From NCBI RefSeq assembly GCF_027579695.1, contig NC_083587.1, positions 59,569,238 to 59,633,237 on the forward strand: a DNA stretch of 64,000 nt. Direction: 5' to 3'. The translations under genes were made by a program, and so were the position numbers. The stretch comes from Neoarius graeffei (lineage: Eukaryota; Chordata; Actinopteri; Siluriformes; Ariidae). The notes under the pieces were generated by a model, which saw only the letters and a program-made list of their open reading frames with translations, had not been told where the DNA came from and did not search any database. Each line of letters starts with the position of its first letter. Position 1 is the first letter of the stretch. Below are positions 1,898 through 59,544 of the stretch, in pieces.

Positions 1898-1955
1898 ATG
1901 GTCCTGGTGGAAGGTCTGATCTTCATGTTATGGCCTCTCAGCAGTTTATGTCATG
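1898..1955 (+). CDS. Notch-like exon 1: signal peptide
   Basis: ATG at 1898 opens a 19-residue hydrophobic leader ([14 protein letters not shown]...CHG) followed at 1956 by the donor GTGAGT. The exon ends in phase 1 (CAT G), exactly what exon 2 requires, and the split codon becomes Gly, giving ...CHG/DPW. It is the least certain exon because it rests on composition, donor and phase and has no homology of its own. Confidence 0.62.
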
Positions 1956-4900
1956 GTGAGTCCAGATCAATTTGATGGACAGATGGATGGATGGATGGAC
2001 GGATGGATAGACAAATTGTTGGATGGATGGACGTACGGACAGATTGTTGGATGGATGAACAGACGAATGGATGGATGGACAGACAGACAGATTGTAGGAT
2101 GGATGGACGGATGCACAGACAGATTGTTGGATGGATGGATGTACAGACAGATTGTTGGATGGAAGGATAGATGGATGGATGGACAGATGAATAGAAAAAG
2201 TGATACAGATAGATGGATCAATAGACAAATGAATAAGATGGATGAATGGATGAATGAACAAGCATATGTAAGTATATATGGATGGATGGATGGATGGATG
2301 GATGGATGGATGGATGGATGGATGGATGGATGGACAATTGGGAGATCAAAATAGAGAGCTGAAAAAACAGGTGGATAGATGAATGAATGAATAAGACAGA
2401 TGGATAGATGCTTGGATGAATGGATAAAAGAACAGATGTGTGGATGAATGTATAGTATATATGGTAACAGTTAAATGGACAGATGTAGAGAAAAACTGTT
2501 GCATAAATAGGTAGATTGAGGAGCATATAGAGCCTTCGATGGATGGATGTGTGATAAATGTACAAGAGAATAGGATGGATGAATGACAAGATGGATGATA
2601 GATGGACAAATGAATAGAAAGAAGGATTCATCAACAGATACAAAATTGGATGGACAGATATAATGGGTGGATGGATAGAGTAATCAATAGATAGTTGGAT
2701 GATTGAATGGAATGAACAATGGATGGACAGTTGAAATGATGGATGGATGGATGGATGGATGGATGGATGGATGGATGGATGGATGGATGGACGCTTGTTG
2801 TGGCCTCCTTCTTTATGAGCTCCTGATTCCTCTCTGTAATACTCTTTAATTATTAACAACAAAGCTAAGGTTTGTACAAGGTGCTTACATTTTGACTTTG
2901 GGAAAAAAAAAATTAAAAGCACTTTATAACCAGACAAATACTCTGTACAAGGATTCCACAGCAGCCCTTCCACTGATCAATATTTGTACCAAAAACAGTG
3001 TCTGTACGAACCCAAACAACTTAATTACTAACTCACAGGATACAAATTGCACATAACAACGGATTTAATTGACCGCCTTTGTAATTTTACTTTGGAAAAT
3101 GACATTACCTTGGCATTGGCATTTTATTAGACCTGCGCAACCATTACAGCCTGGTTTTTCATTTGTTGTGGTTCGTAAAGACTTGTGCCTTCATTGTCCT
3201 TCACACCTGTTAGCTTATTGTTTCTCTCCATTACATTCATCATCACCATGGTGTTGCCCTTCAACCGTGACCCACTCCCACACCATTCCATTTCCTGTTG
3301 CTGTACACCTCTTCTGGTTCACTTTTCCTGTTTGTGTCAGAGTCCGGGTTTCCTGTTTCCCCTCCGTCTCAGGCCAAAGACAAGCCTTCTTTCAGGCCTT
3401 TGTGGTGTTTGACCTTTTTATTTTTTTGAGCTACAGATATTTTTTTGCTTAGGTTCTTCACTTCTGATTTTATTGTTCAATAGAGCAGAAAATTCAGTTA
3501 TTAATATACATATACACAATACTCAGCACTGAGTGCACCACACTTTTCATCATTAACTTTGGCATTTAATCAATAAATGTTATTTAATTTATTATATTAC
3601 AGTATTATGATAAACGGGCGGCACAGTGGTGTAGTGGTTAGCGCTGTCGCCTCACAGCAAGAAGGTCCGGGTTCGAGCCCCGTGGCCGGCGAGGGCCTTT
3701 CTGTGTGGAGTTTGCATGTTCTCCCCGTGTCCGCGTGGGTTTCCTCCGGGTGCTCCGGTTTCCCCCACAGTCCAAAGACATGCAGGTTAGGTTAACTGGT
3801 GACTCTAAATTGACCGTAGGTGTGAATGTGAGTGTGAATGGTTGTCTGTGTCTATGTGTCGGCCCTGTGATGACCTGGCGACTTGTCCAGGGTGTACCCC
3901 GCCTTTCGCCCGTAGTCAGCTGGGATAGGCTCCAGCTTGCCTGCGACCCTGTAGAACAGGATAAAGTGGCTAGAGATAATGAGATGAGATGAGATTATGA
4001 TAAACTGAACATAGAACACAAAAGTCCTTCACCAGATGTGTAAGCAGATTACTTCTGATAAATAACCCTAGCATAGAACTGTAGTAGGGTTAGTAATTCT
4101 AGTAAACAATACTGTTTCTAGGAAGTATTATTCTATCCACATTCACTGGATATGAGCAATCATGCACTCTGATTGGCTACTCTACTACTAGGATATCAGC
4201 TCATATACCATGAGTAGAGAAAAACAAAATGGTGGAGCGTTTTGCTGAACCAACCGAGGACGAAATAAAAACTCTGCTCGAAAACTAAACCCCAAAAAAT
4301 ACACACAAAAAAGCAAGAAAATATGGAGTAAAAGTATTTGAAGGTAAGAATGTATCTTTTTTTTATATTTTTCAAGAATTATTATTATCGCATTTTTCAC
4401 AAATTGCTCCTGTCATTTCGCCGGTTTGTTTACATTCTAAGCAGAAATGATTTTGTCGGAAGTTTTGTATAAAGTCTTTATTGATCGAATTTGCAAAAAA
4501 TAAAAATGATCTGTTTCTCAAGATCCACTGAATGTGGATAGAATAAAACAGTTATTCCATTCAATCTCGTCGTACATGGCTTATAGCCGACTTGGTGCTA
4601 CATGCCTCGTTGGCTATCGGCTCATGTACGACTCGATTTCGTGGAATAACTGTAAAGTAGTCATAGTAGCATGACTGGTAGTAGCAGTTATATTAATATT
4701 AGCTATAGGTGTAGCAGGCATAGTAGTTAGTAGTATTAGTTGTAGTAGTGTCCTGATGTATTCACTGTTCGCATAGCAGTATTAATAGAACTATTAAGCA
4801 CAATAGCAGTGGCATTAACAGTAGTAGTAGTAGTATTGTTAGCTTTGGTAATATCAGGAGTCATAGTTAAAGTAATATGAGTTGTAATAGTATCAGGAAT

Positions 4901-7900
4901 AGCAGGGACAGTGATTAGTAGTAGTAGTAGTAGTAGTAGTAGTAGATGTAGTCATAGCAGATATAGCTAGAAGTAAAATAGTAGTATTAGCAAAGTGGTA
5001 CTATTAACAATACTAATAACAACAGTAGCAGTAGTAGGAGTACGAGCAATAGTTGCAATAGCAGGATTAGCGATATAGCAATAACGATATAGCAATAGCA
5101 GGAGTAGAACTTATAGTAATATTCGCAATAGTAGTAGTTAGCTGTACCAGTATTAGCAATAGCAGGATTAGCGATTATAGTAATATTACCTATAACCCTA
5201 CTCATAGTAGTAGAAGTAGTAGTTATGGTAATGTTAACTGTAGTAGAAGTGGAAGTAGAAGTTTGAGTAATTTGAGCTGCAGGAGTAGCAGGAGTCTCAT
5301 CTCATCTCATCTCATCTCATTATCTCTAGCCGCTTTATCCTGTTCTACAGGGTCGCAGGCAAGCTGGAGCCTATCCCAGCTGACTACGGGCAAAAGGCGG
5401 GGTACACCCTGGACAAGTCGCCAGGACATCACAGGGCTGACACATAGACACAAACAACCATTCACACTCACATCTACGGTCAATTTAGAGTCACCAGTTA
5501 ACCTAACCTGCATGTCTTTGGATTGTGGGGGAAACTGGAGCACCCGGAGGAAACCCACGCGGACACGGGGAGAACATGCAAACTCCGCACAGAAAGGCCC
5601 TCGCCGGCCACGGGGCTCGAACCCGGATCTTCTTGCTGTGAGGCGACAGCGCTAACCACTACACCACCGTGCAGCCCCGAGTAGCAGGAGTAATTGTAAT
5701 AATAATATTAGCTGTAGTAGTAGGTGTAGTAATTAGGAGTTTTCATTGGTAAAGTAAGCTATATTTTGATTGTTTGATTTCCCTTGGGTTTGTTCTCTTG
5801 AAAGCATCACCAGGTGATCCGTGGAGCAGCTGTCCAGCAGATAAAAAGTGCAAAGTCAAGTTTGCGAATGGCGCATGTGATACCGAATGTTCTGGTTCCC
5901 AGTGCCTGAAAGATGGCTTCGACTGCCTTAAGCCCAAAGAATCCTGCAAGTAATAATCAGATTGTGTCTGTACATCAAAAATATTCTTATCCGTTTGCTT
6001 GTAGATCCAAAAGTCTGGATCCAAGACCAAGAACTATTATTTTATCTGTTAAGCAATACAAAAGTTTGGCCGAAGGACAAAGAAGTCCAGACTGACCTTC
6101 CACCAGGAGAAGAAGTGTAAAGATAATAAATGAATAAAAGAACAAATTGGTTAAGAAAAAGAAATTAGGTTGAATAAAATGGTCTTGGAAGTGAACTTTT
6201 GAACTCAAATACACACATACAAAGGATTATTGAAACTACAATTTGTGATGTATCTTTTCTTATAGTTCCGGACACATTCGGTACTGCCGTGACCACTTCG
6301 ACGACACGCACTGCGATAAGGGCTGCAACACTGCCCCCTGTGGGTGGGATGGTTCAGACTGTATAAAAAACTATAAAAACCAACATCCCAACTGGGCCAA
6401 AGGAACACTGATTCTGCATACAGCTATTCCCTTCCAGAAAGCACCACTGCAGAACAGTTCATTCCTCTGGGCTCTCAGCATCCTGCTCCAGACCAGCGTC
6501 AAACTGAGAGGGGTGGTGCCACTTCAGCCCAGTGCTGATTTCTTAAGTATGGATGCACAGAAACTGATAGATCTGCACCAGCAAGCACCTAACTACAAGA
6601 GCAACAGGTAATAGCATTATTTTCTTGCATCTCAGGTTATGTGTAGATCTAAAGGTAGACAGGAGTAGCTCTGTAATTAAGATATGATGATCGTGTTTGT
6701 TCAAATCCCTCAACTGTCAGACTGTCACTTTTAGGTTCTTGGGGCCCCAACTATTCTAGGGCCTTGACCTCTCACCCTTGCAAGATATAGTAGATAAGCG
6801 AAGAGAGCAAAATTTGGTGTTGACAATTCAATGTTATAAATTAACAAGTGAATGAAAAAGTCATTCAGTCAACTGGTAACTTCAATTTATTTTTCCATTC
6901 TGCTTTACTACAGGTCTTTATTGTTCCTCCAAGTGGATAACAGGCCATGCTCCCAGGTACCATTCTCTTGTTTTCCCTATGCATCAGAGGCAGCAGATTT
7001 CTTGAACGCCATGCTGGACCATGCCCCAGCCCACATCAAGCCTGAGATCCAGGCACTCATCAACATCCGGGGCATCAATAAGGAGATCACAGTGACAGAA
7101 TCTTCCGTCAAGGACCATGATGGTATGTTCGACCAAACAATATAACTACTGTTCTCACTTTCCATTTTTCATTTTCCAGTATTGCTTCAATTTTCAAAAA
7201 TATATTAGAACACAGCCGCACAAGAATGTTATAATACAGTGAAGCAAACGGTGTGACTACCTCAGGGTTATCATAGTCATTCCTTCTCTCTTTATGTCTC
7301 TTCCATGCATAATAATACAGGTTCTCCTGCATGGCTGTGGCCTGTAGTTGGCATTGCAGTGGGCATTGGGGCAGCACTGGCTGTAGTGGCACTGGCAGTG
7401 CTGGTATGGCTATGGAGAAGATGGCAGAGAAGAGAACAAAGAGACAGAGTGCATCACAGATCTACTGTAACTGATATCAATGGTGAGAGTAAAAACTGGA
7501 CACAGCGATCCTCTGAGCAGAACAAAAGGAATGGAAGGATAGCAAGAGAGAAGGACAGAAATGGCATGAAGAAGAAGAAAAAAGGGAAAGACCTGGGAAA
7601 GAAGCGCAGGGAACCACTTGGAGAGGATGCCATTCGGATGAGGTGAGGATACGTTTTACCTTTATCAGTATCTTTGACTGGTACGGTAAGCAAACTTCTT
7701 TCTTGGGCCCTGATGTACAAACAAATATTTTGAAAATGCAGTGTAGCGCTTGTGCTAAAGGTCATGAGAACATCTCCTTGTGTACCGAAGACAAAAATAG
7801 CCTTTCCAACATCCTTCCTGATTCCATTCTTACACACTGTTATTCACACTGGTTATCTGTAACTATAATATATTTAGCCAGCAAAACACTTCTGATCTAT

Positions 7901-10900
7901 CAGTCAAGCAGTGAGGAAACTGTGCATCTAATGTCTTCCGGATGCATTACGACTGCAGGCCTCTTAAGAAGACCATGGACATTGGCAGTGACACAGATGT
8001 GACCCAGAGTTCAATGGAGGACATCAGCAGGACTATCTGTGACCACAGATCTCCAGATCAGAAACATTTCAACATCAATCACCAGCAAGTGCCCATAAGT
8101 AAGATAGATACCTTGGGTTTATGATCATTTCTCATGTAGGCACAAGTTTCCTTGTGATAACATTCTCCTTTTGATCATTTGGTATAATTATCAGGTCCAC
8201 CAAGAAGGTGGGAAAGGAACGCCATTCCTACACATCCGAGGAATCCAAGCAATGTGAGTGTTCATCATAATGATCAAAAGTGATTGGAAAGGTCAAAGCT
8301 TATTGAAAAATAGATGGGTTGAAACGGGCAAGGGGCGGCACAGTGGTGTAGTAGTTAGCACTGTTGCCTCACAGCAAGAAGGTTCTGGGTTCGAGCCCAG
8401 TGGCCGACAGGGGCCTTTCTGTGTGGAGTTTGCATATTCTCCCAGTGTCTACGTGATGTCCTTTGTCCATAAGCACACCACACCTAACCGAGCATCAAAG
8501 ATGTGGAATAGTTGGCAGGGTGAAATGCTCCAGGCATTCCGGTTTTTGATAAACTGATGAGGCTTTGCGAGAATAGATTTTTTTGCCAATGTTTTTTTTT
8601 TTGGTACCTTCACATAATTGTAAAGGACCCTCATTAATACACTAATGCCGCTTTCCACTACAAACGCGGCTGAGCCGTGCCGTGCCGAGTCGAGCTGAGT
8701 CGGGCTGAGCGGGGCTGTTGGAGTTGCATTTCGACTACAACCGCGCTGAACCGTGCTGGCTGGAAGTGGGTGGACACATTGGGTGGAGTTAGCGAAAGTG
8801 GGTGGACGTCACGTGATGTCGTTAAGCAGCGCAAACAGTGACATCAGTGACAGTGGCGGAACAAGTCAGAGCCGGGCCGGGGGCGGGGCAAATGACCGGG
8901 CCCTTTATTAAAGCTTATCATAACATCATTTTAGGCTACAAAATGTCCGCAACTGCGGTGTTTACCAATTTCAACACTACCGGGTGCAACTATGTTATTT
9001 AGTACATCAAGTCCTTCAAACGAACATGTAACTCAGAAACAAAAAACATTAGGATACTGTACATGGCTCATAATAAAACATCAATAGCCTATACTGCGCA
9101 CATTATTTGAAGGGCATACGAATGAGCGCTCAGAGGTTGCAACGGTGACAGGAAGAGTCAGAAATAAAAGGAGGGCGGTGCAAACCTCACTGAATGCACT
9201 GTGTTTACCAATTTCAACACTACGGGGTGCAACTATGTTATTTTGTACATTAAGTCCTTCAAACGAACATGTAACTCAGAAACAAAAAAACATTAGGCGA
9301 CATACTGTACATGGCTCATAATAAAACATCAATAGCCTACTGCGCGCATTATTTGAAGGGCATACGACGAGCCTTGCGCTCCGCGAACTCGTGCACGATG
9401 CTCTGTATGTCACTGATTCAGTGATCTTTTAAGCGGTAGTCTCACGACCCGGAGAGTAAACAATAAACATGGAGGACATGGAGTCGTTAGTGTTGCTGGT
9501 CTTGGTGCTGTGGCTTGTAGTCACCGACAACGCCAACAGATACTGGCAAGAGCGTATAGATGAGGCGAGGCGCATAAGGCTTCAGAAATTCTCGTAATTC
9601 GTAATTATTATTCTTCCGGGTTTACGGTGTTTACAGATCCCAGCGCGCTCGCGGGGCGTGTGTGGGCATGTGAGGACACTCCTCCTCACCAATCAGTGCA
9701 CAGGGGAGTGTCTGCTCACGCCCCCAGCCTCACTCGGCACGGTTTGGCTCGCTTCAGCCCCACTCCAAAACGGTGCGAGTTTTAGGGGCTAAGCAGGGCT
9801 GAAACGAGCTGAGTCGTGCTGGTTTTTGGTAGTCGAAACGCGAGCCGTGTCGGGCTGAAGTGAGCTGAAGCGAGCTGAAGTGAGCTGAAAAAGGGTAGTG
9901 GAAAAGGGCCAAAAAAGTCAAAGTCCCTCTCGTCCCAATACTAACCAGGCCCTTAAGACGCATTGGGCGGCACCAACCTCCGTTTCTATAGCCCTCGGCC
10001 TCTCGCCTATACAGCTAGGGATACAGTGGGGGCTAGTCCTCTGGTAACCGTGAGAGTTTGACTTCCCACTTGCATCTGTATTGCAGCGTGCCTTGCCAAA
10101 TGGCAGTAGGTACCATTTTTATGATGGTCTTTGGTATGACCCGACCGCGAGTAGAATTCGCAATCGACAAGTGGACACGCTAACCACTAGGCCAGTTCAT
10201 GGTCATTCATACACAACTGGACCTTAAAGGCAACTGATTTGTAGGTACCTTGTGGGTATTTACATTGTTTCTTGTACTCTGTAAAATACATGATTTCTGA
10301 CAGGGTATCCCAGCCAAAGGGTGAACCAAGCTACTAAAAAAACGTGTGCTAATGATTTACATGTCACATACTGATCAGAATATTTACAAGAACTTGTTAA
10401 ATTCTCCCATTTCATTCATAATGCATAATTGATTTTGGAGATATAACCTCAGCAGGAACTAATCATTACCCCACAACTGGTCTTGTCATTTTGGTGTTTT
10501 TCACCACAGTCAGCCCCAGTCCAGTGGTGTGGACCTGATGGTTCCGTGGTTCTGATCCGAGCTGTGAGGAGTGGTCTCGATCGGGTGGTGCTGGAGCTAC
10601 TCAGAGCTGGGGTGCCTGTCAACAACACCGACCACACCGGTAATCACCACTCTCATTCTTAACTCAGGTTCTGTCAAGTGGAGGTAACAAGAGGATCATT
10701 TGTGGCCTTCAAGGACATATCAAGTTCTGTTCTGTATCTATCTAGCTCTTTATGCCAACCTCAGTGGCATTATATTTTGTTTTATTCCTTATATGCTGTT
10801 TGGTCAAATGTATGTGGACACCTGACCATCGCAACCAGTGCATGTTGAACATTCTTTGCCAAAACCATTGGCATTAATATGGAGCTGGTCCCTGCTTTGC

Positions 10901-13568
10901 TGCTAGAACAGCCTCCATTCCACTCATCTTCATGAGATTTTGGGACGTGGCTATGGAAATTTGTGATGATTCAGCCACAAGAACATTAGTGAGGTTGATC
11001 AGTGATGATGGGCGAGGAGAACTGGGGTGCACTCGGTGTTCCAATTCATCCAAAAAGTGTTCATTGGGGTTGAGACCACAGACCAGGGCTCTGTGCAGGC
11101 CACTTGAGTTCTTCCATACCAACATCAGCAAAGTATGTCGTTATGGAGCTCACTTTGTGTACAGGGGCATGCTAGAACAGGTTTCGGCCCCATAGTCCCA
11201 GTGAAGGGAACTCATAATGCTACAGCATGCAAAGTCATTTGAGAGAATTGTGTGTTTCCAAGCTTGTGGCACGAGTTTGGAGAAGAGCCACATACTTTTG
11301 GCCATAGAGTGTATCTGGCTTTTAAAGCACCAGTCACAAGTTCCTAAAACAACAATAGCAAGGCTTCCTCAAGTTGTAGTTTACGTGTATGGGACTGATT
11401 TTTGATCTCATGCCTGCCCATTTCTCAAGAGATTCTGACCAACCCCACAGCAAGCTTAACCAGTATGAAGGATATACCAAAAATAAATGAATGAATGTGG
11501 TATATGTGGCAAGTTCAATACCCTCTCATATTAATTTCTTTGTCCCGCGATCTTCATATCTGACCGCCCACTTCCAACCTGCATGGGAGTAAAACCTGCC
11601 CACTCCTGTGGCTTTTTTGTCGAGTCCTGCAAGATCCAATTTCTGAAGAACACCTCTACCATATCAATCGCCAGGCCTCAAGAATGATAAGAACAGCTGT
11701 GACACTTGGACACATTGTAGGAGGGCTTTTTAACTGTCTGGATAATTAGTGGTTCCTGACTGGGGTTTTAAAGGTCTACACAGAAGTGGCTTGGGGAGTA
11801 ACGTGCATTTCTCTGATCTCCCCATTTCCTCCTCCTCTTCCTCTGTACTTTCCTGCTGCACCACCCTCCTTAATCCACCACGGGCTGTCAGAACCCCTAA
11901 TTCCTGCCGATGATTCTGAACAAAGTTAACGTGCTGTGGCGTATTTAGTGTGGATACTTTTATAATAGATTTCATTGCTCTGCTTTATCTCACTGAAGGC
12001 GTTTTGCAAGCTGTTTTTGTTCTTGGTCAACCAGTACCATTCACACCTACTTCCACCTTCTTTGACTGCTCTATGGCCTGCTTACTTTGATCATTCTTTC
12101 TTCTTAACTCCCTAATACCACTGCACGCTTGCTTCTGTCTGCTTCTTTGTGTATGATGGAGCCTCTTCTTTCCTTTATTTCCCTCCTCTCTAAATTCACT
12201 TTCTCTGCCAGGGAGATCCGCCCTGCACTGGGCATGCTCAGTAAACCACCTCTCATTAGCTCGGACACTGATACGTTACGGCGCTGCTGTGGACATGCAG
12301 GACCACAAGGTAAGGTAACTTTTTTCAACACTATTAGACATACTTCAAGGCAGCTTTGGTTGCAGTTAAAATCCTGGACGTGTTCCATTTCCAGGGTGAG
12401 ACAGCTTTGTTTCTATCGGCTCTCCATGGCTGCTACGATACTGCCAGGTTCCTCCTCTTAAACAGTGCCAATCAGGAGCTGACAGACCGCAGGGGGCGTC
12501 GACCAATAGATGTGGCCCGGGAAGGATTCCATCACCAGATCCTTGAGCTTCTACTGGCCCATCGAGTCCACCAGAGCCCATTTCCTGTGGCCCCAGCTAC
12601 CGAGGTGCTGTGGGATGATCGCGCTTATGTGTATTCCCCCTGGGTGGCATCACCTCCATGTCTGCCAGGAAGGAGTGCTTCCTTTTCTGGGGTTGTAGGA
12701 CCCAGGGAGATGGCTTCACCCCAGCCCAGGTAAGTTGGTGATTGAGCTTGCTCACTTGCAATCAACAAAAATCTACTTTATGGTCTTACCTGCTTTGAGG
12801 ATTCCACCCACCTCATGGACGGTTGGACTTGCACATGCAGCAAGTGCAAATAAGGCACCTGCCTAGGGTTTCACCCCATCATCAGGAGACGGCATTCAGA
12901 TGATTCCACAGTCATTTGTTAGCACTGTCCTCCAGGATACGGGTAGCTGTTATGAGGAGCTGTAATAATGGAATGCAAATTGGAAAGTGACTAAATTTGA
13001 AAAACCCTTATCCTTATGTCTCTAAGATATTGATACACATGGAAAATTGTGTCATTTTTGTCTTCTCCACAGTGACTGGCAATTTGTGCCACCTCAAAGC
13101 TGGCGATCAATGACAAACCAATCCACGACGGCGCTAGTCAGCCCCAGAGTCCTCAGCCGGCCATCGCGTCCAATCAGCACGCTTCAGGAAGTGACTTCAG
13201 AAGCCGAGGAAGAAGAAAGAGAAGCAATGCAGCAGGTCCCCAGAGCGACGACACCCCACTTCCTGTGTCCTCAGCCGGCACCCCGGCAGCGATCATTCTC
13301 CTGCACACAGCCCGCTCTGCAGCGCCGCCTCAGCGCCAACCAACCAGAGCCAGTCATCAATGTCCTGCCAGAGAAATTAGCTAATGAGCAGCAAGTGGAA
13401 ATAGTGGTTGTACCCCACCCTAAGGCAAGCTCCAGCCAATCAGAGAGCAGAAGTGCCGGGACGGTGTGTAAAACAGACTCCGAGAGAGAAAATAAAAAGA
13501 GCCATGAGACAAAAAGTCAAAGTGAGGTCGTCAATACCGGGCCCACATCAGTACAAACCGTTATGTGA
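1898..13568 (+). CDS. EGF-less Notch-family receptor, 11-exon gene model (NOTCH4-like?)
   Basis: Join of 1898-1955, 5814-5949, 6266-6607, 6914-7122, 7321-7642, 7959-8098, 8195-8253, 10510-10639, 12212-12309, 12395-12729 and 13073-13568. Every intron is GT...AG, every junction keeps phase, and the total is 2325 bases (774 residues plus stop). Domains in order: signal peptide (about 1-20), Lin12/Notch repeats with six cysteines each (about 26-61 and 64-97), NOD (about 110-179), NODP (about 180-248), transmembrane helix (about 254-280), [10 protein letters not shown] (342-351), ankyrin repeats (about 430-560) and a serine/arginine-rich tail. Family knowledge: Notch receptors are surface receptors cut by ADAM protease and gamma-secretase to free an intracellular transcriptional co-activator. 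Here the ligand-binding EGF array, the first LNR, the ankyrin 2-4 block and a PEST tail are missing (typical Notch is over 2000 residues). Loss of EGF repeats would prevent classical Delta/Jagged binding; this is inference. Alternative: EGF exons lie upstream of base 1 and exon 1 is spurious. The adjacent pbx2-like gene supports NOTCH4 affinity. Confidence 0.82.
1976..2793. repeat. GGAT/GATG tetranucleotide array
   Basis: A degenerate (GGAT)n tract starts about 20 bases after the exon 1 donor and runs for about 800 bp. It has two nearly pure blocks, about 2279-2334 and 2741-2791. It generates long spurious reading frames rich in Ser-Ile-His-Pro or Gly-Trp-Met-Asp, which are not genes. Confidence 0.95.
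2794..3603. other. intron 1 sequence, no feature recognised
   Basis: This is intronic in the Notch-like model. I inspected both strands for EGF-type cysteine patterns (CxxxxxCxxxxxC...CxC) with flanking splice signals and found none. The cysteine-containing frame at 3069-3452 does not fit an EGF module. Confidence 0.4.
3616..3993 (+). mobile_element. tRNA-derived SINE (Mermaid-like), full length
   Basis: The head carries RNA polymerase III A- and B-box-like motifs (GTGGTGTAGTGGTTAGCGC and GGTTCGAGCCC), followed by a long non-tRNA body ending in (GAGAT)n. It is flanked by a perfect 12-bp target-site duplication, ATTATGATAAAC, at 3604-3615 and 3994-4005. The same family recurs at 5296, 8334, 14185, 34261, 54431 and 58745. 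The family name is from memory. Confidence 0.93.
4127..4653 (-). mobile_element. foldback MITE, family B, copy 1
   Basis: Related in inverted orientation to 13869-15473. One end is itself a foldback: ACAGTTATTCCA at 4548 pairs with TGGAATAACTGT ending at 4653, enclosing about 80 bp with further inverted matches (CGTACATGG / CATGTACGA). No transposase is visible. Confidence 0.6.
4660..5755. repeat. degenerate TAG/TAA-type trinucleotide tract
   Basis: About 700 bp of imperfect GTA/AGC/TAT triplets, including a pure (GTA)n block at about 4916-4945. It is interrupted by a SINE at 5296-5678. It lies in intron 1, ending just before the exon 2 acceptor. Confidence 0.85.
5296..5678 (-). mobile_element. 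tRNA-derived SINE (Mermaid-like), full length
   Basis: Reverse-oriented copy of the SINE at 3616. It has a perfect 13-bp target-site duplication, GAGTAGCAGGAGT, at 5283-5295 and 5679-5691. It sits inside the trinucleotide tract, 135 bp upstream of Notch-like exon 2. Confidence 0.92.
5814..5949 (+). CDS. Notch-like exon 2: Lin12/Notch repeat
   Basis: Acceptor CACCAG at 5808-5813, donor GTAATA at 5950. It encodes [12 protein letters not shown], then CDTEC and CLKDGFDC: six cysteines spaced as in LNR modules, starting at the DPW motif that opens the second LNR of vertebrate Notch. LNRs bind calcium and shield the protease site. It is entered in phase 1 and left in phase 2. Confidence 0.9.
6266..6607 (+). 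CDS. Notch-like exon 3: last LNR and NOD domain
   Basis: Acceptor TTATAG, donor GTAATA at 6608. The LNR has six cysteines ([23 protein letters not shown]). It is followed by a NOD domain ([31 protein letters not shown]). The long loop that carries the furin site in canonical Notch is almost absent: the exon ends ...NYKSNR and the next resumes at the NODP strand. Phase 2 out. Confidence 0.92.
6914..7122 (+). CDS. Notch-like exon 4: NODP domain
   Basis: Acceptor CTACAG, donor GTATGT at 7123. [12 protein letters not shown] aligns with the vertebrate Notch strand SIVYLEIDNRQC, and the second cysteine of that disulphide pair (SCF) is kept. It is the membrane-proximal half of the negative regulatory region. 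Phase 1 out. Confidence 0.92.
7321..7642 (+). CDS. Notch-like exon 5: transmembrane and juxtamembrane region
   Basis: Acceptor ATACAG, donor GTGAGG at 7643. A transmembrane helix rich in Val, Ala, Gly and Leu (start PAWLWPVVG) is followed by a basic stop-transfer segment. A 60-residue Lys/Arg-rich linker then leads to [10 protein letters not shown], the hallmark after the RAM segment in Notch. The Trp-x-Pro CSL-binding motif (WFPEGF in NOTCH1) is not found in the linker. An alternative donor GTGAGA near 7483 could remove part of the linker. Confidence 0.88.
7959..8098 (+). CDS. Notch-like exon 6: RAM-ankyrin linker
   Basis: Acceptor ACTGCAG, donor GTAAGA at 8099. It encodes [13 protein letters not shown]..., aligning with the PLKN.SDG linker after LGED in vertebrate Notch. 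Phase 2 in, phase 1 out. Confidence 0.85.
8195..8253 (+). CDS. Notch-like exon 7: short linker exon
   Basis: A 59-base exon with acceptor TATCAG and donor GTGAGT. It encodes [20 protein letters not shown], the position of the RQW..HL linker before the ankyrin domain. Phase 1 in, phase 0 out. Confidence 0.78.
8334..8455 (+). mobile_element. SINE (Mermaid-like), 5' fragment
   Basis: Only the tRNA-like head and about 50 bp of body are present. It is more diverged than the other copies (GTAGTAGTTAGCACTG). It lies in the intron after Notch-like exon 7. Confidence 0.85.
8646..9911 (+). mobile_element. Harbinger-like MITE copy 1, with a secondary insertion
   Basis: Ends TGCCGCTTTCCACTAC and GTAGTGGAAAAGGGCCA are inverted repeats; the related copy at 28137-28807 has a clean TTA target duplication. 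Both copies contain an ATG-led frame beginning [19 protein letters not shown] and ending at a stop after about 42 residues, probably a remnant of the parent element. Copy 1 carries about 570 extra bases (8853-9427) absent from copy 2. Confidence 0.72.
8853..9427. mobile_element. insertion within the MITE, with an internal tandem duplication
   Basis: Compared with the 28137 copy this is an insertion, with TCAGTGA on both sides and a CAGTGGCGG start. A block of about 165 bp at 8959-9124 is repeated at about 9198-9366 with few differences. Confidence 0.6.
10510..10639 (+). CDS. Notch-like exon 8: first ankyrin repeat
   Basis: Acceptor CACCACAG, donor GTAATC at 10640. It contains the GPDG motif that opens the Notch ankyrin domain ([19 protein letters not shown]...) and ends NNTDHTG, matching the end of repeat 1 (NQTDRTG). 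Phase 0 in, phase 1 out; using the AG four bases downstream would break frame. Confidence 0.85.
10795..11311. mobile_element. Tc1-derived MITE-like element
   Basis: Terminal inverted repeats GGTCAAATGTATGTGGACACC (near 10801) and CACATACTTTTGGCCATAGAG (near 11290) are those of a dispersed fish element that I recognise. There is no intact ORF. It occupies a third of the intron where ankyrin repeats 2-4 would be expected. Confidence 0.65.
12212..12309 (+). CDS. Notch-like exon 9: ankyrin repeat (repeat 5 type)
   Basis: Acceptor CTGCCAG, donor GTAAGG at 12310. [14 protein letters not shown]...DMQDHK aligns with the GKSALHWAAAVNNV...DMQNNK repeat of vertebrate Notch. It joins exon 8 in phase (split Gly codon). 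Phase 0 out. Confidence 0.92.
12395..12729 (+). CDS. Notch-like exon 10: last two ankyrin repeats
   Basis: Acceptor TTTCCAG, donor GTAAGT at 12730. [21 protein letters not shown] and [19 protein letters not shown] match the two final Notch ankyrin repeats (ETPLFLAAREG..., LPRDIAQERMHHDIVRLL). A Pro/Ser-rich segment follows. Phase 2 out. Confidence 0.92.
13073..13568 (+). CDS. Notch-like exon 11: C-terminal tail and stop
   Basis: Acceptor CTCCACAG, stop TGA at 13566-13568. About 165 residues beginning [10 protein letters not shown]. It has an acidic stretch ([10 protein letters not shown]) and two basophilic-kinase-type sites (RQRSFS, QRRLSA), and ends ...TSVQTVM. There is no glutamine-rich activation domain and no WSSSSP-type PEST degron as in NOTCH1. 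Arg-rich phospho-site-like repeats also occur in the NOTCH4 tail, which is weak support for that affinity. Confidence 0.88.
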
Positions 13569-14184: not shown

Positions 14185-14563
14185 CTCATCTCATCTCATT
14201 ATCTGTAGCCGCTTTATCCTGTTCTACAGGGTCGCAGGCAAGCTGGAGCCTATCCCAGCTGACTACGGGCGAAAGGCGGGGTACACCCTGGACAAGTCGC
14301 CAGGTCATCACAGGGCTGACACATAGACACAGACAACCATTCACACTCACATTCACACCTACGCTCAATTTAGAGTCACCAGTTAACCTAACCTGCATGT
14401 CTTTGGACTGTGGGGGAAACCGGAGCACCCGGAGGAAACCCACGCGGACACGGGGAGAACATGCAAACTCCGCACAGAAAGGTCCTCGCCAGCCACGGGG
14501 CTCGAACCCGGACCTTCTTACTGTGAGGTGACAGCGCTAACCACTACACCACCGTGCTGCCTC
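14185..14563 (-). mobile_element. SINE (Mermaid-like) flanked by an unusually long duplication
   Basis: Full-length reverse copy. The flanking sequence 14143-14184 is repeated perfectly at 14565-14606: 42 bases starting TAAAGTGCATATCACGGG. This is far longer than the 12-13 bp duplications of its sister copies. Confidence 0.9.
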
Positions 14564-16728: not shown

Positions 16729-18041
16729 CAGTGGTGCTTGAAAGTTTGTGAACCCTTTAGAATTTTCTATATATTTCTGCATAAATATGACCAAAAACAT
16801 GATCAGATTTTCACACAAGTCCTAAAAGTAGATAAAGAGAACCCAGTTAAACAAATGAGACACAAATATTATATTAGCCCATTCCTCTGTACAGAACAGC
16901 TTCAACTCTGGGATGTTGGTGGGTTTCCTCACATGAACTGCTCGCTTCAGGTCCTTCCACAACATTTCCATTGGATTAAGGTCAGGACTTTGACTTGGCC
17001 ATTCCAAAACATGAACTTTATTCTTCTTTAACCATTCTTTCGTAGAATGACTTGTGCTTTGGGTTGTTGTCTGGGTGCATGACCCACCTTCTCTTGAGAT
17101 TCAGTTCATGGACAGATGTCCTGACATTTTCCTTTAGAATTCGCTGGTATAATTCAGAATTCATTGTTCCATCAATGATGGCAAGCCGTCCTGGCCCAGA
17201 TGCAGCAAAACAGGCCCAAACCATGATCCTACCACCACCATGTTTCACAGATGGGATAAGGTTCTTATGCTGGAATGCAGTGTTTTCCTTTCTCCAATCA
17301 GCAATGTTCTTTTTGGAGAGCAGTGGTTTTCTCCTTGCAACCCTGCCATGCACACCATTGTTGCTCAGTGTTCTCCTGATGGTGGACTCATGAACATTAG
17401 CCAATGTGAGAGAGGCCTTCCGTTGCTTAGAAGTTACCCTGGGGTCCTTTGTGACCTCGCCGACTATTACATGCCTTGCTCTTGGAGTGATCTTTGCTGG
17501 TTGACCACTCCTGGGGAATTCAATGGTCTTGAATTTCCTCCATTTGTACACAATCTGTCTGACTGTGGATTGTTGGAGTCCAAACTCTTTAGAGATGGTT
17601 TTGTAACCTTTTCCAGCCTGATGAGCATCAACAACGCTTTTTCTGAGCTCCTCAGAAATCTCCTTTGTTCGTGCCATGATACACTTCCACAAACATGTGT
17701 TGTGAAGATCAGACTTTGATAGATCCCTGTTCTTTAAATAAAACAGGGTGCCCACTCACACCTGATTGGCATCCCATTAATTGAAAACACCTGACTCTAA
17801 TTTCACCTTCAAATTAACTGCTAATCCTAGAGGTTCACATACTTTTGCCAATCACAGATATGTAATATTGGATCATTTTCCTCAATAAATAAATGACCAA
17901 GTATAATATTTTTGTCTCATTTGTTTAACTGGGTTCTCTTTATCTACTTTTAGGACTTGTGTGAAAATCTGATGTTTTACGTCATATTTATGCAAAAATA
18001 TGGAAAATTCTAAAGGGCTCGCAAACTTTTAAGCACCACTG
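16729..18041 (-). mobile_element. Tc1-like transposon, type 1, internally deleted copy
   Basis: Ends CAGTGGTGCTTGAAAGTTTG and CTTTTAAGCACCACTG are inverted repeats, with a TA on the left side; the right TA is mutated. The reverse strand carries a defective transposase frame (17018-17755) with an HTH (SEELRKSVVDAHQAGKGYKTI) and KHGGGRIMVWACF. The block with the first catalytic Asp ([12 protein letters not shown] in the sister copy) is deleted and the C-terminus is broken. It sits between the Notch-like and pbx2-like 3' ends. Confidence 0.9.
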
Positions 18042-18333: not shown

Positions 18334-49781
<31,448 letters not shown>

Positions 49782-49932
49782 CTGACGAGACCGTGAAGAT
49801 CATCGTTTAGGTATACAGCCGTGTGACTATTTCACAAACACACATCATATTCCTATACATCACTGACCTCTCTATGCGCCCTTCGATTATGAACTACATC
49901 ACAGCAGTAAATCGACAAAACCTAAGCTTTTA

Positions 49933-51540: not shown

Positions 51541-52539
51541 AGTGGAGCGGTACGTTAGATGCCTGGTTTTCAAAAAGGCCTCGAACCACACGGGCAAGTC
51601 TGTAATTTTAGCCGTCACTATGATTACCGGGTGAAATACGTCTGTGTACGGGTCCATGTATAAATGCTGGTCGGCTAAATATTTATTAAATAAATAAATA
51701 AATAAATAAATATCGATCGCTATCCCATTATTGTATACGGCCTGTTTTGGGTCAAACCCGCCCACTCGGCACGCTCACATCGTTTACATTTTGGCTTGCG
51801 ACAGAATGCGATGTGTCCTTGTAGGGGAGTCACATATCGAGACTTGAGATCTGTCATGCAGTTAATGTTAACGGTAATCGTTAAAATTATAAATATATAC
51901 GCAGAACATGTTAAAACCTGAATCAAGTTCAGTACCTGATCTCACTACAGACACTGCTGTAGAAGCTTTAGGATTCGACCGATATTCAGCTTGTTCAGAA
52001 ATTGAATAATGAATCAAAAAGAAATTTGACGATACAAAACATTTTTGATGTTTCCAAAATCGAGTTATTGTAACTTACTTGATTTTGTAAACATCAAAAA
52101 TATACAGTCAAGCCGGAAAGTCTGCACACCCCTTTCACCTTCTCCACGTTTTATTACGTTACGGACTTATTCTACAATAGATTGAGTTCATTTTTTGTCA
52201 CAAAATAGCCCATAATGATAAAGTGAAAGCAGTTTTTTTTTTTTTTAGATATTTGTGCCAATTTATTAAAAATCAAAATGTAAAATATAAGTGTGCACAC
52301 CCTTTGATATGACACCCCAAAGTGAGCTGAGGTGCATTTTGTTTCCACTGATGCTACTTGAGATGTTTCTCCAACTTTATTGGAGTCCAGCTGTGGTAAA
52401 TTCAATTGATTGGACATGCTTGGGGATTGCCAACAAACACCTGCCTATATAAAAAGGTCCCACAGTTGACCGTGCATGTCAGAGCAAACTCCAAGCCCTG
52501 GGGTCAAAGGAATTATCTGCAGACCTCAGAAAGAGGATT

Positions 52540-53370
52540 GTGTCAAGGCATAGATCTGGAGAAGGGTACAGAAAAATTGCTGCAGCTTTACAGGTCCCAA
52601 ACAGCACAGTGGCCACAATTATTCGTAAATTAAAGAAGTCTGGAACCACCAAGAACCTTCCTAGACCTGGCTGCCTGGCCAAACTGAGTGATCGGGGAAG
52701 ACGGGCCTTGGCCAGGGAGGTGAGCAAGAACCCGAAGGTCACTCTGACAGAGCGCTAGTGTATCCTTGTGGAGATGAGAGAACCGTTCAGAAGATCAACC
52801 ATCCAGGCAGCACTCCACAAATCAGGCCTTTACGGTAGAGTGGCCAGATGGAAGCCACTCCTTAGTAAAAGGAAGATGACAGCCCGCTTGGAGTTTGCCA
52901 AAAGGCACCGAGAGGAGACTCAAACCATGAGAAACCAGATTCTCTGGTCTGATGAAACCAAAATTGAACTTTTTGGCCTGAATGCCAAGCGTCATGTCTG
53001 GAGGAAACCAGGCACCGCTCATCACCTGGTCAATGCCATCCCTACAGTGAAGCATGGCGGTGGTAGCATCATGATGTGGGGATGTTTTTCAGCAGCAGGA
53101 ATGGGGCAACTAGTCCTGATAGAGGGAAAGATAAATGCAGCCAAGTACACAGAGATCCTTGAAGAAAACCTGTTCCAGAGCGCTCTGGACCTCAGACTGG
53201 GGCGAAGGTTTACCTTCCAACATGATAACGACCCGAAGCACACAGCCAAAAGAACAAAGGAGTGGCTTTGGAGAAAGTCTGTGAACGTCCTTGAGTGGCC
53301 CAGCCAGAACCCAGACCTGAATCCAGTTGAACATCTGTGGAAGGAGCTGAAAATGGCTGCGTACCGATGA
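52540..53370 (+). pseudogene. Tc1 transposase pseudogene, single frame with stops
   Basis: One continuous frame is broken by TAG at 52756-52758 and TGA at 53368-53370. HTH (RHRSGEGYRKIAAAL), [35 protein letters not shown] and [11 protein letters not shown] are all present, so the DDE triad is readable. The stops make it inactive. Confidence 0.92.
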
Positions 53371-54430: not shown

Positions 54431-54810
54431 AGGGCGGCACGGTGGTGTAGTGGTTAGCGCTGTCGCCTCACAGCAAGAAGGTCCGGGTTCGAGCCCCGTG
54501 GCCGGCGAGGGCCTTTCTGTGCGGAGTTTGCATGTTCTCCCCGTGTCCGCGTGGGTTTCCTCCGGGTGCTCCGGTTTCCCCCACAGTCCAAAGACATGCA
54601 GGTTAGGTTAACTGGTGACTCTAAATTGAGCGTAGGTGTGAATGTGAGTGTGAATGGTTGTCTGTGTCTATGTGTCAGCCCTGTGATGACCTGGCGACTT
54701 GTCCAGGGTGTACCCCGCCTTTCGCCCGTAGTCAGCTGGGATAGGCTCCAGCTTGCCTGCGACCCTGTAGAACAGGATAAAGCGGCTACAGATAATGAGA
54801 TGAGACGAGA
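54431..54810 (+). mobile_element. tRNA-derived SINE (Mermaid-like), full length
   Basis: Perfect 13-bp target duplication TGGAAATTCCTCC at 54418-54430 and 54811-54823. Confidence 0.94.
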
Positions 54811-55304
54811 TGGAAATTCCTCCCCGAACGCCTTGAAACTGTCTCAGGTAACCCCAGTTTTCCATTTTTCTCACCTATGGTTCACGGTGAAGGGCTTCAG
54901 CCTTTTTTTTTTAAATTGTACCCTCCCATTCTCTGCCTCGTACCCTTTTATTCCCCAAAACCTTGAGACCACTGCATTCATGCAACATAAGTGACTAAAA
55001 ACCAAAAGAACATTCCATGTACTGATTTAACAGTCTAATAGGATATGTTGTGTTATGCTGCGCTATATGAAAACTCACGCTGAGGTGGTGTTATACGGCC
55101 CGACGCAAAGCAGCCTGGTCTAGACTTTACATGCATATGAAGAAGCAGCAGCAATTGTGTGTACGCGCGTGACATCATGCTGATTTTCCAAACCGGAAGT
55201 CCACCATGCTGGATGATGAACACCACCAAGATAGCGGCGCTTCATGTGTGAGCTGCTGCAATGCTTCGTGATTTTCTTTTCATTTCACTGCCTTTGAAGA
55301 AAGA

Positions 55305-58744: not shown

Positions 58745-59117
58745 GGCACGGTACGGTGGTGTAGTGGTTAGCGTTGTCGCCTCGCAGCAAGAAGGTCCGG
58801 GTTCGAGCCCCGTGGCCGGCGAGGGCCTTTCTGTGTGGAGTTTGCATGTTCTCCCCGTGTCCGCGTGGGTTTCCTCCGGGTGCTCCGGTTTCCCCCACAG
58901 TCCAAAGACATGCAGGTTAGGTTAACTGGTGGCTCTAAATTGAGCGTAGGTGTGAATGTGAGTGTGAATGGTTGTCTGTGTCTATGTGTCAGCCCTGTGA
59001 TGACCTGGCGACTTGTCCAGGGTGTACCCTGCCTTTCGCCCGTAGTCAGCTGGGATAGGCTCCAGCTTGCCTGCGACCCTGTAGAACAGGATAAAGCGGC
59101 TAGAGATAATGAGATGA
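58745..59117 (+). mobile_element. tRNA-derived SINE (Mermaid-like)
   Basis: Full-length copy (head GGTGGTGTAGTGGTTAGCG, tail AATGAGATGAGA). No clean target duplication is visible. It is inserted at the end of the 180-bp tandem repeat. Confidence 0.92.
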
Positions 59118-59544
59118 GAAACTATCAGCAGGGGTCAAGGGGGCTGCCTGAAGCTGTTGAGATTTTAACATTTAAAGATGCTATAGAACACATTTTTTAC
59201 ACAGATTTAACATAGAAAAGCAACAGAATTTAACCATCATGTGTATCTATTTGATGCCATATTTTGTAATCAATGACATAAGTGGCAAAAAAAAAAAATT
59301 ATAAAAATTAGACGAAAATGTAGCTTTGAAGAATATACTTGCCTAAATATTCCACTGATTTTGTTATAACAATAGTTCATCTCATTTATTTATTTATTTT
59401 GTTTGTTTCAAGTTAATGTCAAACCTAGTCTAATATAAACCACATTCATTTTTCGAAAATCATGAATATGAGCAGAAATCAATGATTCAGTAATATTAGA
59501 TATATACATATGTACAGCAAATACTGGAGATATTTGATTTAAAC

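Follow-up and report, generated by a model that had tools for sequence, protein, structure and literature searches.

A Notch-derived gene without EGF repeats in the catfish Neoarius graeffei, a probable ray-finned-fish orthologue of NOTCH4

Does the Notch-like gene in this stretch of catfish DNA really lack an EGF array and, if so, which Notch gene is it and how may its product work? The window, by which is meant the whole stretch of 64,000 nucleotides analysed here, is C20:59569238-59633237 of the 2.34-Gb Neoarius graeffei genome (contig NC_083587.1). On its + strand it holds a notchl-type gene, 11.7 kb long, whose 11 exons all have GT-AG borders and give a single open frame with a single stop. 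Exon borders were approached by trying GT and AG within 8 nt of every exon end, which gave 24 open in-frame chains. The exons in window coordinates are as follows, P0001 being the homologous protein of Ictalurus.

1898-1955, + strand: exon 1, ATG and signal-peptide-like stretch, 58 nt, donor gtgagt, exit phase 1, N-terminus homologous in P0001
5805-5949, + strand: exon 2, LNR-B only (GDPWSSC...DGFDC...SCN), acceptor placed by comparison with P0001, matches to PF00066
6266-6607, + strand: exon 3, LNR-C and the N-terminal half of the heterodimerisation domain (HD)
6914-7122, + strand: exon 4, NODP, the C-terminal HD half
7321-7642, + strand: exon 5, transmembrane helix, basic stretch and 10-residue motif
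7959-8098, + strand: exon 6, linker, from the PLGED motif towards the ankyrin repeats
8195-8253, + strand: exon 7, linker
10510-10639, + strand: exon 8, ankyrin repeat corresponding to repeat 4 of NOTCH1
12212-12309, + strand: exon 9, ankyrin repeat 5
12395-12729, + strand: exon 10, ankyrin repeats 6-7, RSASFSG motif
13073-13568, + strand: exon 11, C-terminal tail with the EVTSEAEEE and RQRSFS motifs, C-terminal QTVM (PDZ-type) and stop codon

The original prediction of a signal-peptide-like exon, left in phase 1 through a gtgagt donor and spliced directly to LNR exons with all 11 exons in phase, was borne out by this gene, and the 2325-nt model proposed with it translates with one stop. Entry into exon 2 in phase 1 was also retained, but its position at 5814 was not, since P0001 fits an acceptor 9 nt earlier in the same phase, at 5805. 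This is the more likely acceptor by protein comparison, and it gives a coding length of 2334 nt and a protein of 777 aa. The window protein fits the plan of the notchl family, with signal peptide, LNR-B and LNR-C, HD, transmembrane helix, ankyrin repeats 4-7 and tail motifs. Pfam matched LNR (two stretches), NODP and Ank, and the NOD match fell short of E 0.001. The HD ahead of one transmembrane helix is present both by Pfam NODP and by alignment with the NRR chains of NOTCH1-3, and exon 4 presumably carries the strand with the predicted S2 region. The structure model employed was that of the Ictalurus protein P0001 and not of the window protein, with a mean pLDDT of 59.6, and only its ankyrin and HD parts were used; S2 exposure is not readable from it since pLDDT is below 60 in the LNR part. 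Compared with NRR structures by Foldseek, the model gave target TM values of 0.52-0.59 at an rmsd of about 6-7.

The absence of any EGF-type cysteine pattern, also predicted, holds in six frames of the whole window, and the proposed scan of the 50 kb upstream for EGF exons likewise found the six-cysteine pattern 0 times in six frames. As a control, eight 3-kb loci around LNR matches of canonical Notch genes in the same genome were scanned, and the pattern was found in five of them (L001, L002, L003, L006 and L007). L003 and L007 are one gene, the five positive loci cover all four canonical Notch genes, and the loci without the pattern (L004, L005 and L008) contain the LNR-C exon. In each of the four canonical genes the last EGFs, LNR-A, the linker (e.g. 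CSLNFHDPWKNC) and LNR-B share a single exon, whose frame ends in ...CK in three of the four, like that of window exon 2, with L006 reading past CK. Window exon 2 corresponds to the 3′ part of this canonical exon and begins at the site of the LNR-AB linker, just ahead of DPW; its acceptor thus sits in the former linker, and the EGFs and LNR-A are missing together. These two losses need not be one event, since the sturgeon and bichir proteins described below keep EGFs without LNR-A.

EGF exons could in principle sit further upstream, making exon 1 a chance or alternative first exon, and the window itself includes only about 1.9 kb of upstream sequence. The 50 kb beyond, however, hold TAP1-like exons instead of an EGF pattern, and the relatives argue in the same direction: of 122 family members, 121 had an LNR-B match, preceded by a median of only 27 residues, a hydrophobic core stands ahead of LNR-B in 98 of the 122 (some entries being partial), and the contigs of two relatives measure 2,989 and 3,191 bases and are each read in one frame, of 789 and 799 aa respectively. 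These two short contigs with their uninterrupted frames look like spliced transcripts, given that the gene here takes 11 exons over 11.7 kb. The alternative first-exon reading was rejected by the 50-kb scan together with the canonical exon comparison, and it is extremely improbable. A crude signal-peptide score, above threshold in 98 of 122 members with 24 misses that include partial models and several scoring 1.5-1.8, gives weak support for the N-terminus.

More than the EGF array is missing. The original prediction of a ligand-independent or differently triggered Notch-like receptor was right about the EGFs and overlooked the losses of LNR-A, the plug over S2, an S1 furin pattern, a canonical RAM motif and ankyrin repeats 1-3, as well as the presence of a PDZ-type C-terminus. 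The window protein has two LNRs (B and C), LNR-A being absent. S1 and W-x-P were counted in a position-aware manner, with 117 of 120 teleost members parsed. Looked for from LNR-C up to the DNR motif, the S1 furin pattern occurred in 0 of these 117 and was also absent from the proteins of the window, Amia, sturgeon and bichir, while as a yardstick it was detected in 6/9 NOTCH1, 1/2 NOTCH2 and 5/5 NOTCH3; its incomplete detection in NOTCH1 and NOTCH2 makes the absence in notchl weaker evidence, and the comparison covers NOTCH1-3 and not NOTCH4, of which one in nine was parsed. The spacing from LNR-C to DNR in notchl (85-88) is that of NOTCH3, which has the S1 site. The W-x-P of RAM is absent at its canonical place in the window, Amia, sturgeon and bichir proteins. 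A loose W-x-P, farther from the membrane than the canonical place, was found in 10 of 117 members, and at least 80% of 121 members have a tryptophan somewhere between the transmembrane helix and PLGED. Instead of seven ankyrin repeats the window protein has repeats 4-7 only, and this part aligns with the last four of the seven NOTCH1 repeats. The P0001 model shows four helix pairs here with a block pLDDT of 80-96, and its Foldseek matches include 1ymp (mouse Notch1 repeats 4-7) at a target-normalised TM of 0.80. The bichir protein has one extra ankyrin repeat, aligned with repeat 3.

The spread of this architecture was investigated by a homologue search restricted to proteins of about 426-1355 aa at E<=0.001, which gave 161 matches, the best 120 being listed. 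The best relative among the matches listed showed 89% identity over 100% of the protein, and the closest listed entries were from catfishes, with Ictalurus furcatus at 89%, Tachysurus at 85% and Silurus at 81%. The 120 listed homologues measure 684-976 aa, bar one partial entry of 582, and belong to catfishes, characins, carps, herrings, salmonids, spiny-rayed fishes, eels, tarpon, bonytongues and a mormyrid. The EGF pattern was found in 0 of these best 120 of 161, and LNR patterns numbered two in 116 and one in 4; so wide a spread speaks against an artefact of annotation. For full-length relatives the query was padded with X, which moved the length range to about 890-2830 aa. The best non-teleosts among the matches listed were then Acipenser ruthenus P0124 (1445 aa, 353 bits) and Polypterus senegalus P0125 (1719 aa, 285 bits), and other vertebrate Notch proteins reached at most 211 bits in this padded-query search. 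Among the highest-scoring matches, the four longer entries from teleosts (P0044, P0121, P0122 and P0123) have no EGF domain in the precomputed list. P0124 and P0125 carry 14 and 20 EGFs by pattern, or 10 and 12 Pfam EGF stretches, and two LNRs only, without LNR-A. A search with the C-terminal part of the sturgeon protein found P0240 of the bowfin Amia ocellicauda, 794 aa long, in which the signal stretch runs into LNR-B without EGFs. The gene had been suggested as a possible teleost remnant; its presence in teleosts is confirmed, but it is not restricted to them, as the bowfin also has it. Gar was not among the matches listed (best 120 of 161-212 per search). Judged by these proteins, the EGF array probably disappeared in the stem of the neopterygians, after the sturgeon split and before bowfin and teleosts parted. 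On the few non-teleosts sampled, the loss of LNR-A in the ray-finned branch likely preceded that of the EGF array.

Conservation was counted over 121 neopterygian sequences, the partial entry P0010 being left out. Positions at least 95% invariant amount to 92 of 140 in the ankyrin part, 14 of 43 in LNR-B and 13 of 38 in LNR-C; the HD halves have 10 of 77 and 16 of 67 such positions, and the tail has 61 of 217. Identity between the window and Amia proteins is 77% in the ankyrin part, 46% in LNR-B, 42% in HD and 44% in the tail. The cysteines of LNR-B and LNR-C were invariant in 80 of 80 sequences chosen by hand for the family alignment. Two tail motifs, RSxSFSG and RxRSFS, each occur in 120 of 121 sequences (120 teleost entries and the window) and are also carried by Amia, sturgeon and bichir. 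They were found in 0/9 amniote NOTCH4, 0/10 NOTCH1, 0/5 NOTCH3 and 0/1 NOTCH2. The RxRSFS site fits the AKT consensus. The frog NOTCH4-like protein P0194 (Hymenochirus boettgeri) reads RSGSFS at residue 1254, where notchl has RSASFS. A class I PDZ-type C-terminus ([ST]-x-hydrophobic) ends 112 of 122 neopterygian members, the ten misses including partial records, and it was found in 0 of 27 other Notch proteins, namely sturgeon, bichir, 8 NOTCH4, 10 NOTCH1, 5 NOTCH3 and 2 frog proteins, a set without NOTCH2.

The identity of the gene was addressed with an IQ-TREE tree of 41 sequences, including 11 of the listed notchl proteins, over 484 columns that begin with LNR-B and run through the ankyrin part to its end. 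The notchl, sturgeon and bichir proteins group together with support 100/100, and a branch with support 100/98 separates NOTCH4 and notchl from NOTCH1, 2 and 3 and the acorn-worm Notch. The AU test rejects a grouping of notchl with NOTCH1 (p 0.0097), NOTCH2 (0.017) and NOTCH3 (0.015). The tree contains long branches, of which the program warned, and one distant outgroup; given the long-branch warning, the tree alone is insufficient for NOTCH4, and linkage adds support. In human, NOTCH4, PBX2 and the TAP genes are neighbours in the MHC. In the window two PBC-domain exons of a PBX gene were recognised.

46207-46395, - strand: PBC-domain exon of the PBX gene, a neighbour and not part of notchl
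49534-49782, - strand: upstream PBC-domain exon of the PBX gene, likewise a neighbour

The PBC exons lie 33-36 kb downstream of notchl on the opposite strand, and by position the gene is probably PBX2. Four other contigs bear PBX genes: C16, with a canonical Notch gene 0.9 Mb away, C10, with one about 54 Mb away, and C4 and C24, where no Notch gene stands beside; the Notch genes on C25 and C12 are without PBX. TAP1-like ABC transporter exons (L010:118-803 and L011:7259-7525, - strand) lie about 19-23 kb upstream of the window, head-to-head with notchl, and the ABC transmembrane part scored 111 bits against TAP1, 83 against ABCB9 and 49 against TAP2 among solved structures. A candidate TAP1-like first exon (L009:1869-2327) had no Pfam or PDB match, and matches for PPT2 were found on C16 and C2, with none on C20. 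Ten neighbouring ORFs were compared with Pfam, where five matched (three ABC and two PBC) and five did not.

The locus is therefore very probably notchl, the ray-finned-fish orthologue of NOTCH4, identity and architecture being judged jointly from sequence; a fish remnant of NOTCH4 had been guessed at in the original prediction, and the 100/98 branch, the AU tests and the PBX and TAP1-like neighbours favour that guess. Automatic record names, mostly 'neurogenic locus notch homolog protein 1', would instead make notchl a derived NOTCH1 copy, which is highly improbable in view of the AU value of 0.0097 against the NOTCH1 grouping, the canonical Notch loci standing separately on C25, C16, C12 and C10, and the MHC-type neighbours. 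Against the NOTCH4 link count the long branches, the single distant outgroup, the lack of a PPT2 match on C20, the PBX genes on C4 and C24 with no Notch gene beside them, the Notch genes on C25 and C12 without PBX, and the occurrence of the notchl tail motifs in 0/9 amniote NOTCH4. RSxSFS may have belonged to the tail of the ancestral NOTCH4 and have been lost in amniotes. PBX2 and NOTCH4 both stand in the MHC class III table of PMC1309616, where a NOTCH4 orthologue is stated to be absent from the zebrafish and Fugu assemblies. Elsewhere Notch4 is called mammal-specific (PMC4350099), and a lungfish Notch4 is mentioned (PMC11401434).

Other features of the window were noted. The PBX gene with its PBC and homeodomain exons occupies 43500-49800 on the - strand, another PBC match, a weak one, follows outside the window at C20:59637614, and within the gene lies a 31-bp minisatellite of about 55 copies (46612-48372) with long chance ORFs on both strands. 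ORFs that we take to encode Tc1/mariner-like transposases are located at 17018-17755, 29509-30432, 44594-45571 and 52453-53370, one of them with 325 aa without a stop. An interspersed repeat, whose copies were recognised by a common translated stretch, occurs in both orientations at about 3600-3990, 5300-5690, 14190-14560, 34200-34600, 54450-54840 and 58770-59120.

By name and sequence the gene is the same as the notchl of zebrafish and other teleosts, with 71-89% identity to catfish and characin entries and 64% to Danio aesculapii. Zebrafish notchl was called previously uncharacterised (PMC9338088), and the excerpts of notchl literature found describe neither its architecture nor a loss of EGFs or LNR-A nor a link to NOTCH4. 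Tetrapod NOTCH4 resembles notchl as its nearest group in the tree, in PBX and MHC-type linkage, in endothelial expression, as in mouse arteries (PMC11441982), and in basophilic phospho-sites in the tail (PMC4350099). It differs in having 22, 22 and 26 pattern-matched EGFs in the three proteins examined, three LNRs in the two scanned by Pfam and W-x-P between LNR and PLGED in 9/9 (over a loose stretch), and in lacking the PDZ-type end in 8/8 and RxRSFS, RSxSFSG and EVTSExE in 9/9. Sturgeon P0124 and bichir P0125 are like notchl in their two LNRs without LNR-A, in showing neither the S1 pattern nor a W-x-P at the canonical RAM place, and in sharing its tail motifs, but unlike it they have EGFs (14 and 20) and no PDZ-type end, and the bichir has its extra ankyrin repeat. 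Delta-EGF NOTCH1 constructs retain full LNR, RAM and ankyrin domains. Such engineered NOTCH1, used as a gauge of ligand-independent activation (PMC2726630), lacks the EGF region like notchl; it is however a laboratory construct, whereas notchl is natural and has lost more.

How may such a protein work? The best explanation overall, to which we assign a probability of roughly 0.6, is that notchl is an EGF-less NOTCH4 that works free of ligand, weakly or not via CSL, in arterial endothelium, the mechanistic part, which we infer, standing at somewhat less than even odds. NOTCH4 would have been cut down stepwise in ray-finned fishes. Absent from the bichir, sturgeon, bowfin and teleost proteins alike are LNR-A, an S1 furin pattern, the CSL-binding motif of RAM in its canonical form and either the first two or the first three ankyrin repeats; after the sturgeon split the whole EGF array would have gone, with the signal-peptide exon joining the acceptor at the former LNR-AB linker, and the PDZ-type end would have appeared. 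The known ligand contact of Notch is EGF11-12 (PMC3415683) and, with no EGF repeats in notchl, that contact is gone, so that DSL ligands would not be bindable through EGF repeats. In NOTCH1 the LNR-AB linker plugs a hollow over S2, and deletion of LNR-A, linker and LNR-B gives ligand-independent activity (PMC3145759). Of the parts deleted there, LNR-A and the plug are missing from notchl as well and LNR-B is present, as are LNR-C and HD. Its autoinhibitory region would be weakened, and any ADAM/gamma-secretase processing would then be ligand-independent; some autoinhibition may remain, since the LNR-B and LNR-C cysteines are invariant. A lack of S1 cleavage need not matter (PMC2726630).

The conserved output would be the module of ankyrin repeats 4-7 and tail, with little or no canonical CSL activation, controlled at basophilic-kinase sites in arterial endothelium. 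In human NOTCH4, AKT sites and 14-3-3 hold the ICD outside the nucleus (PMC4350099), and zebrafish notchl RNA was reported in dorsal aorta and intersegmental vessels, in the same arterial cluster as dll4 (PMC9338088). Release of the ankyrin-tail module by cleavage or action at the membrane is a choice that sequence cannot settle. The arterial endothelial expression with dll4 (PMC9338088), the retained HD domain, transmembrane helix and PLGED basic motif, and the tryptophan (at least 80% of members) and loose W-x-P (10/117) in the RAM region would also suit a ligand-independent but otherwise canonical Notch, with constitutive S2/S3 cleavage and an ICD that drives Notch targets with CSL and Mastermind. 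This is unlikely, as the RAM motif is missing at its canonical place, ankyrin repeats 1-3 are gone, and CSL binding rests mainly on RAM and MAML requires the ankyrin domain (PMC3415683, PMC8100066), the W-x-P of RAM being necessary for CSL binding (PMC8100066). On these requirements a full CSL complex with notchl is unlikely, although the tryptophan and the loose W-x-P make weak CSL binding still conceivable.

Two further readings give the protein no signal of its own or turn it against canonical Notch. As a membrane-tethered scaffold, no longer a signal receptor, it would hold partners such as AKT/14-3-3 by its PDZ-type end and ankyrin repeats 4-7; the restriction of that end to the neopterygian members (112/122, against 0/27 other Notch proteins without NOTCH2) and an intracellular ankyrin part much better conserved than the ectodomain are in its favour. 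It is nonetheless doubtful, for a pure anchor would have no need of the conserved cysteines in the LNRs or of the conserved part of the HD core. As a damper of canonical Notch it would compete for ADAM/gamma-secretase or supply a dominant-negative ICD, for which the retained cleavage-region domains, the missing needs for CSL activation and the arterial cluster shared with dll4 (PMC9338088) would be suitable; substrate competition would not require near-invariant ankyrin surfaces, however, and this role is quite unlikely. The explanation preferred here, an EGF-less NOTCH4 working without ligand, can be drawn further into the tentative proposal that NOTCH4 was never lost in fish but rebuilt in the neopterygian stem from a ligand-gated transcriptional receptor into a ligand-free, PDZ-tethered, AKT-regulated and CSL-free arterial ankyrin membrane protein, kept in bowfin and the sampled teleosts. 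A Notch-derived membrane protein working without Notch ligand is the surer description, and a receptor signalling like Notch is less certain, because LNR-A, the LNR-AB plug, the S1 pattern, a canonical RAM motif and ankyrin repeats 1-3 are gone and a PDZ-type end is present.

Among the matches listed, openly licensed PMC literature gave no description of an EGF-less teleost Notch. The architecture, age and origin of notchl were likewise not found among the papers listed, while the gene name and the arterial expression in zebrafish were already published. The identity proposed here argues against the statements that NOTCH4 is absent from the zebrafish and Fugu assemblies (PMC1309616) and that it is mammal-specific (PMC4350099). 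Zebrafish arterial Notch work that counts only notch1a, notch1b, notch2 and notch3 would miss a fifth member in the same vessels. Notch is the textbook receptor gated by ligand on its EGF repeats, and the natural notchl departs from that: with the EGFs, LNR-A, the S1 pattern, the canonical RAM motif and three of the seven ankyrin repeats all gone, its ankyrin repeats 4-7 are still near-invariant across bowfin and teleosts, which suggests some Notch function that is independent of the missing parts. Moreover, notchl is a small, tractable protein in zebrafish arteries in which such a function may be found.
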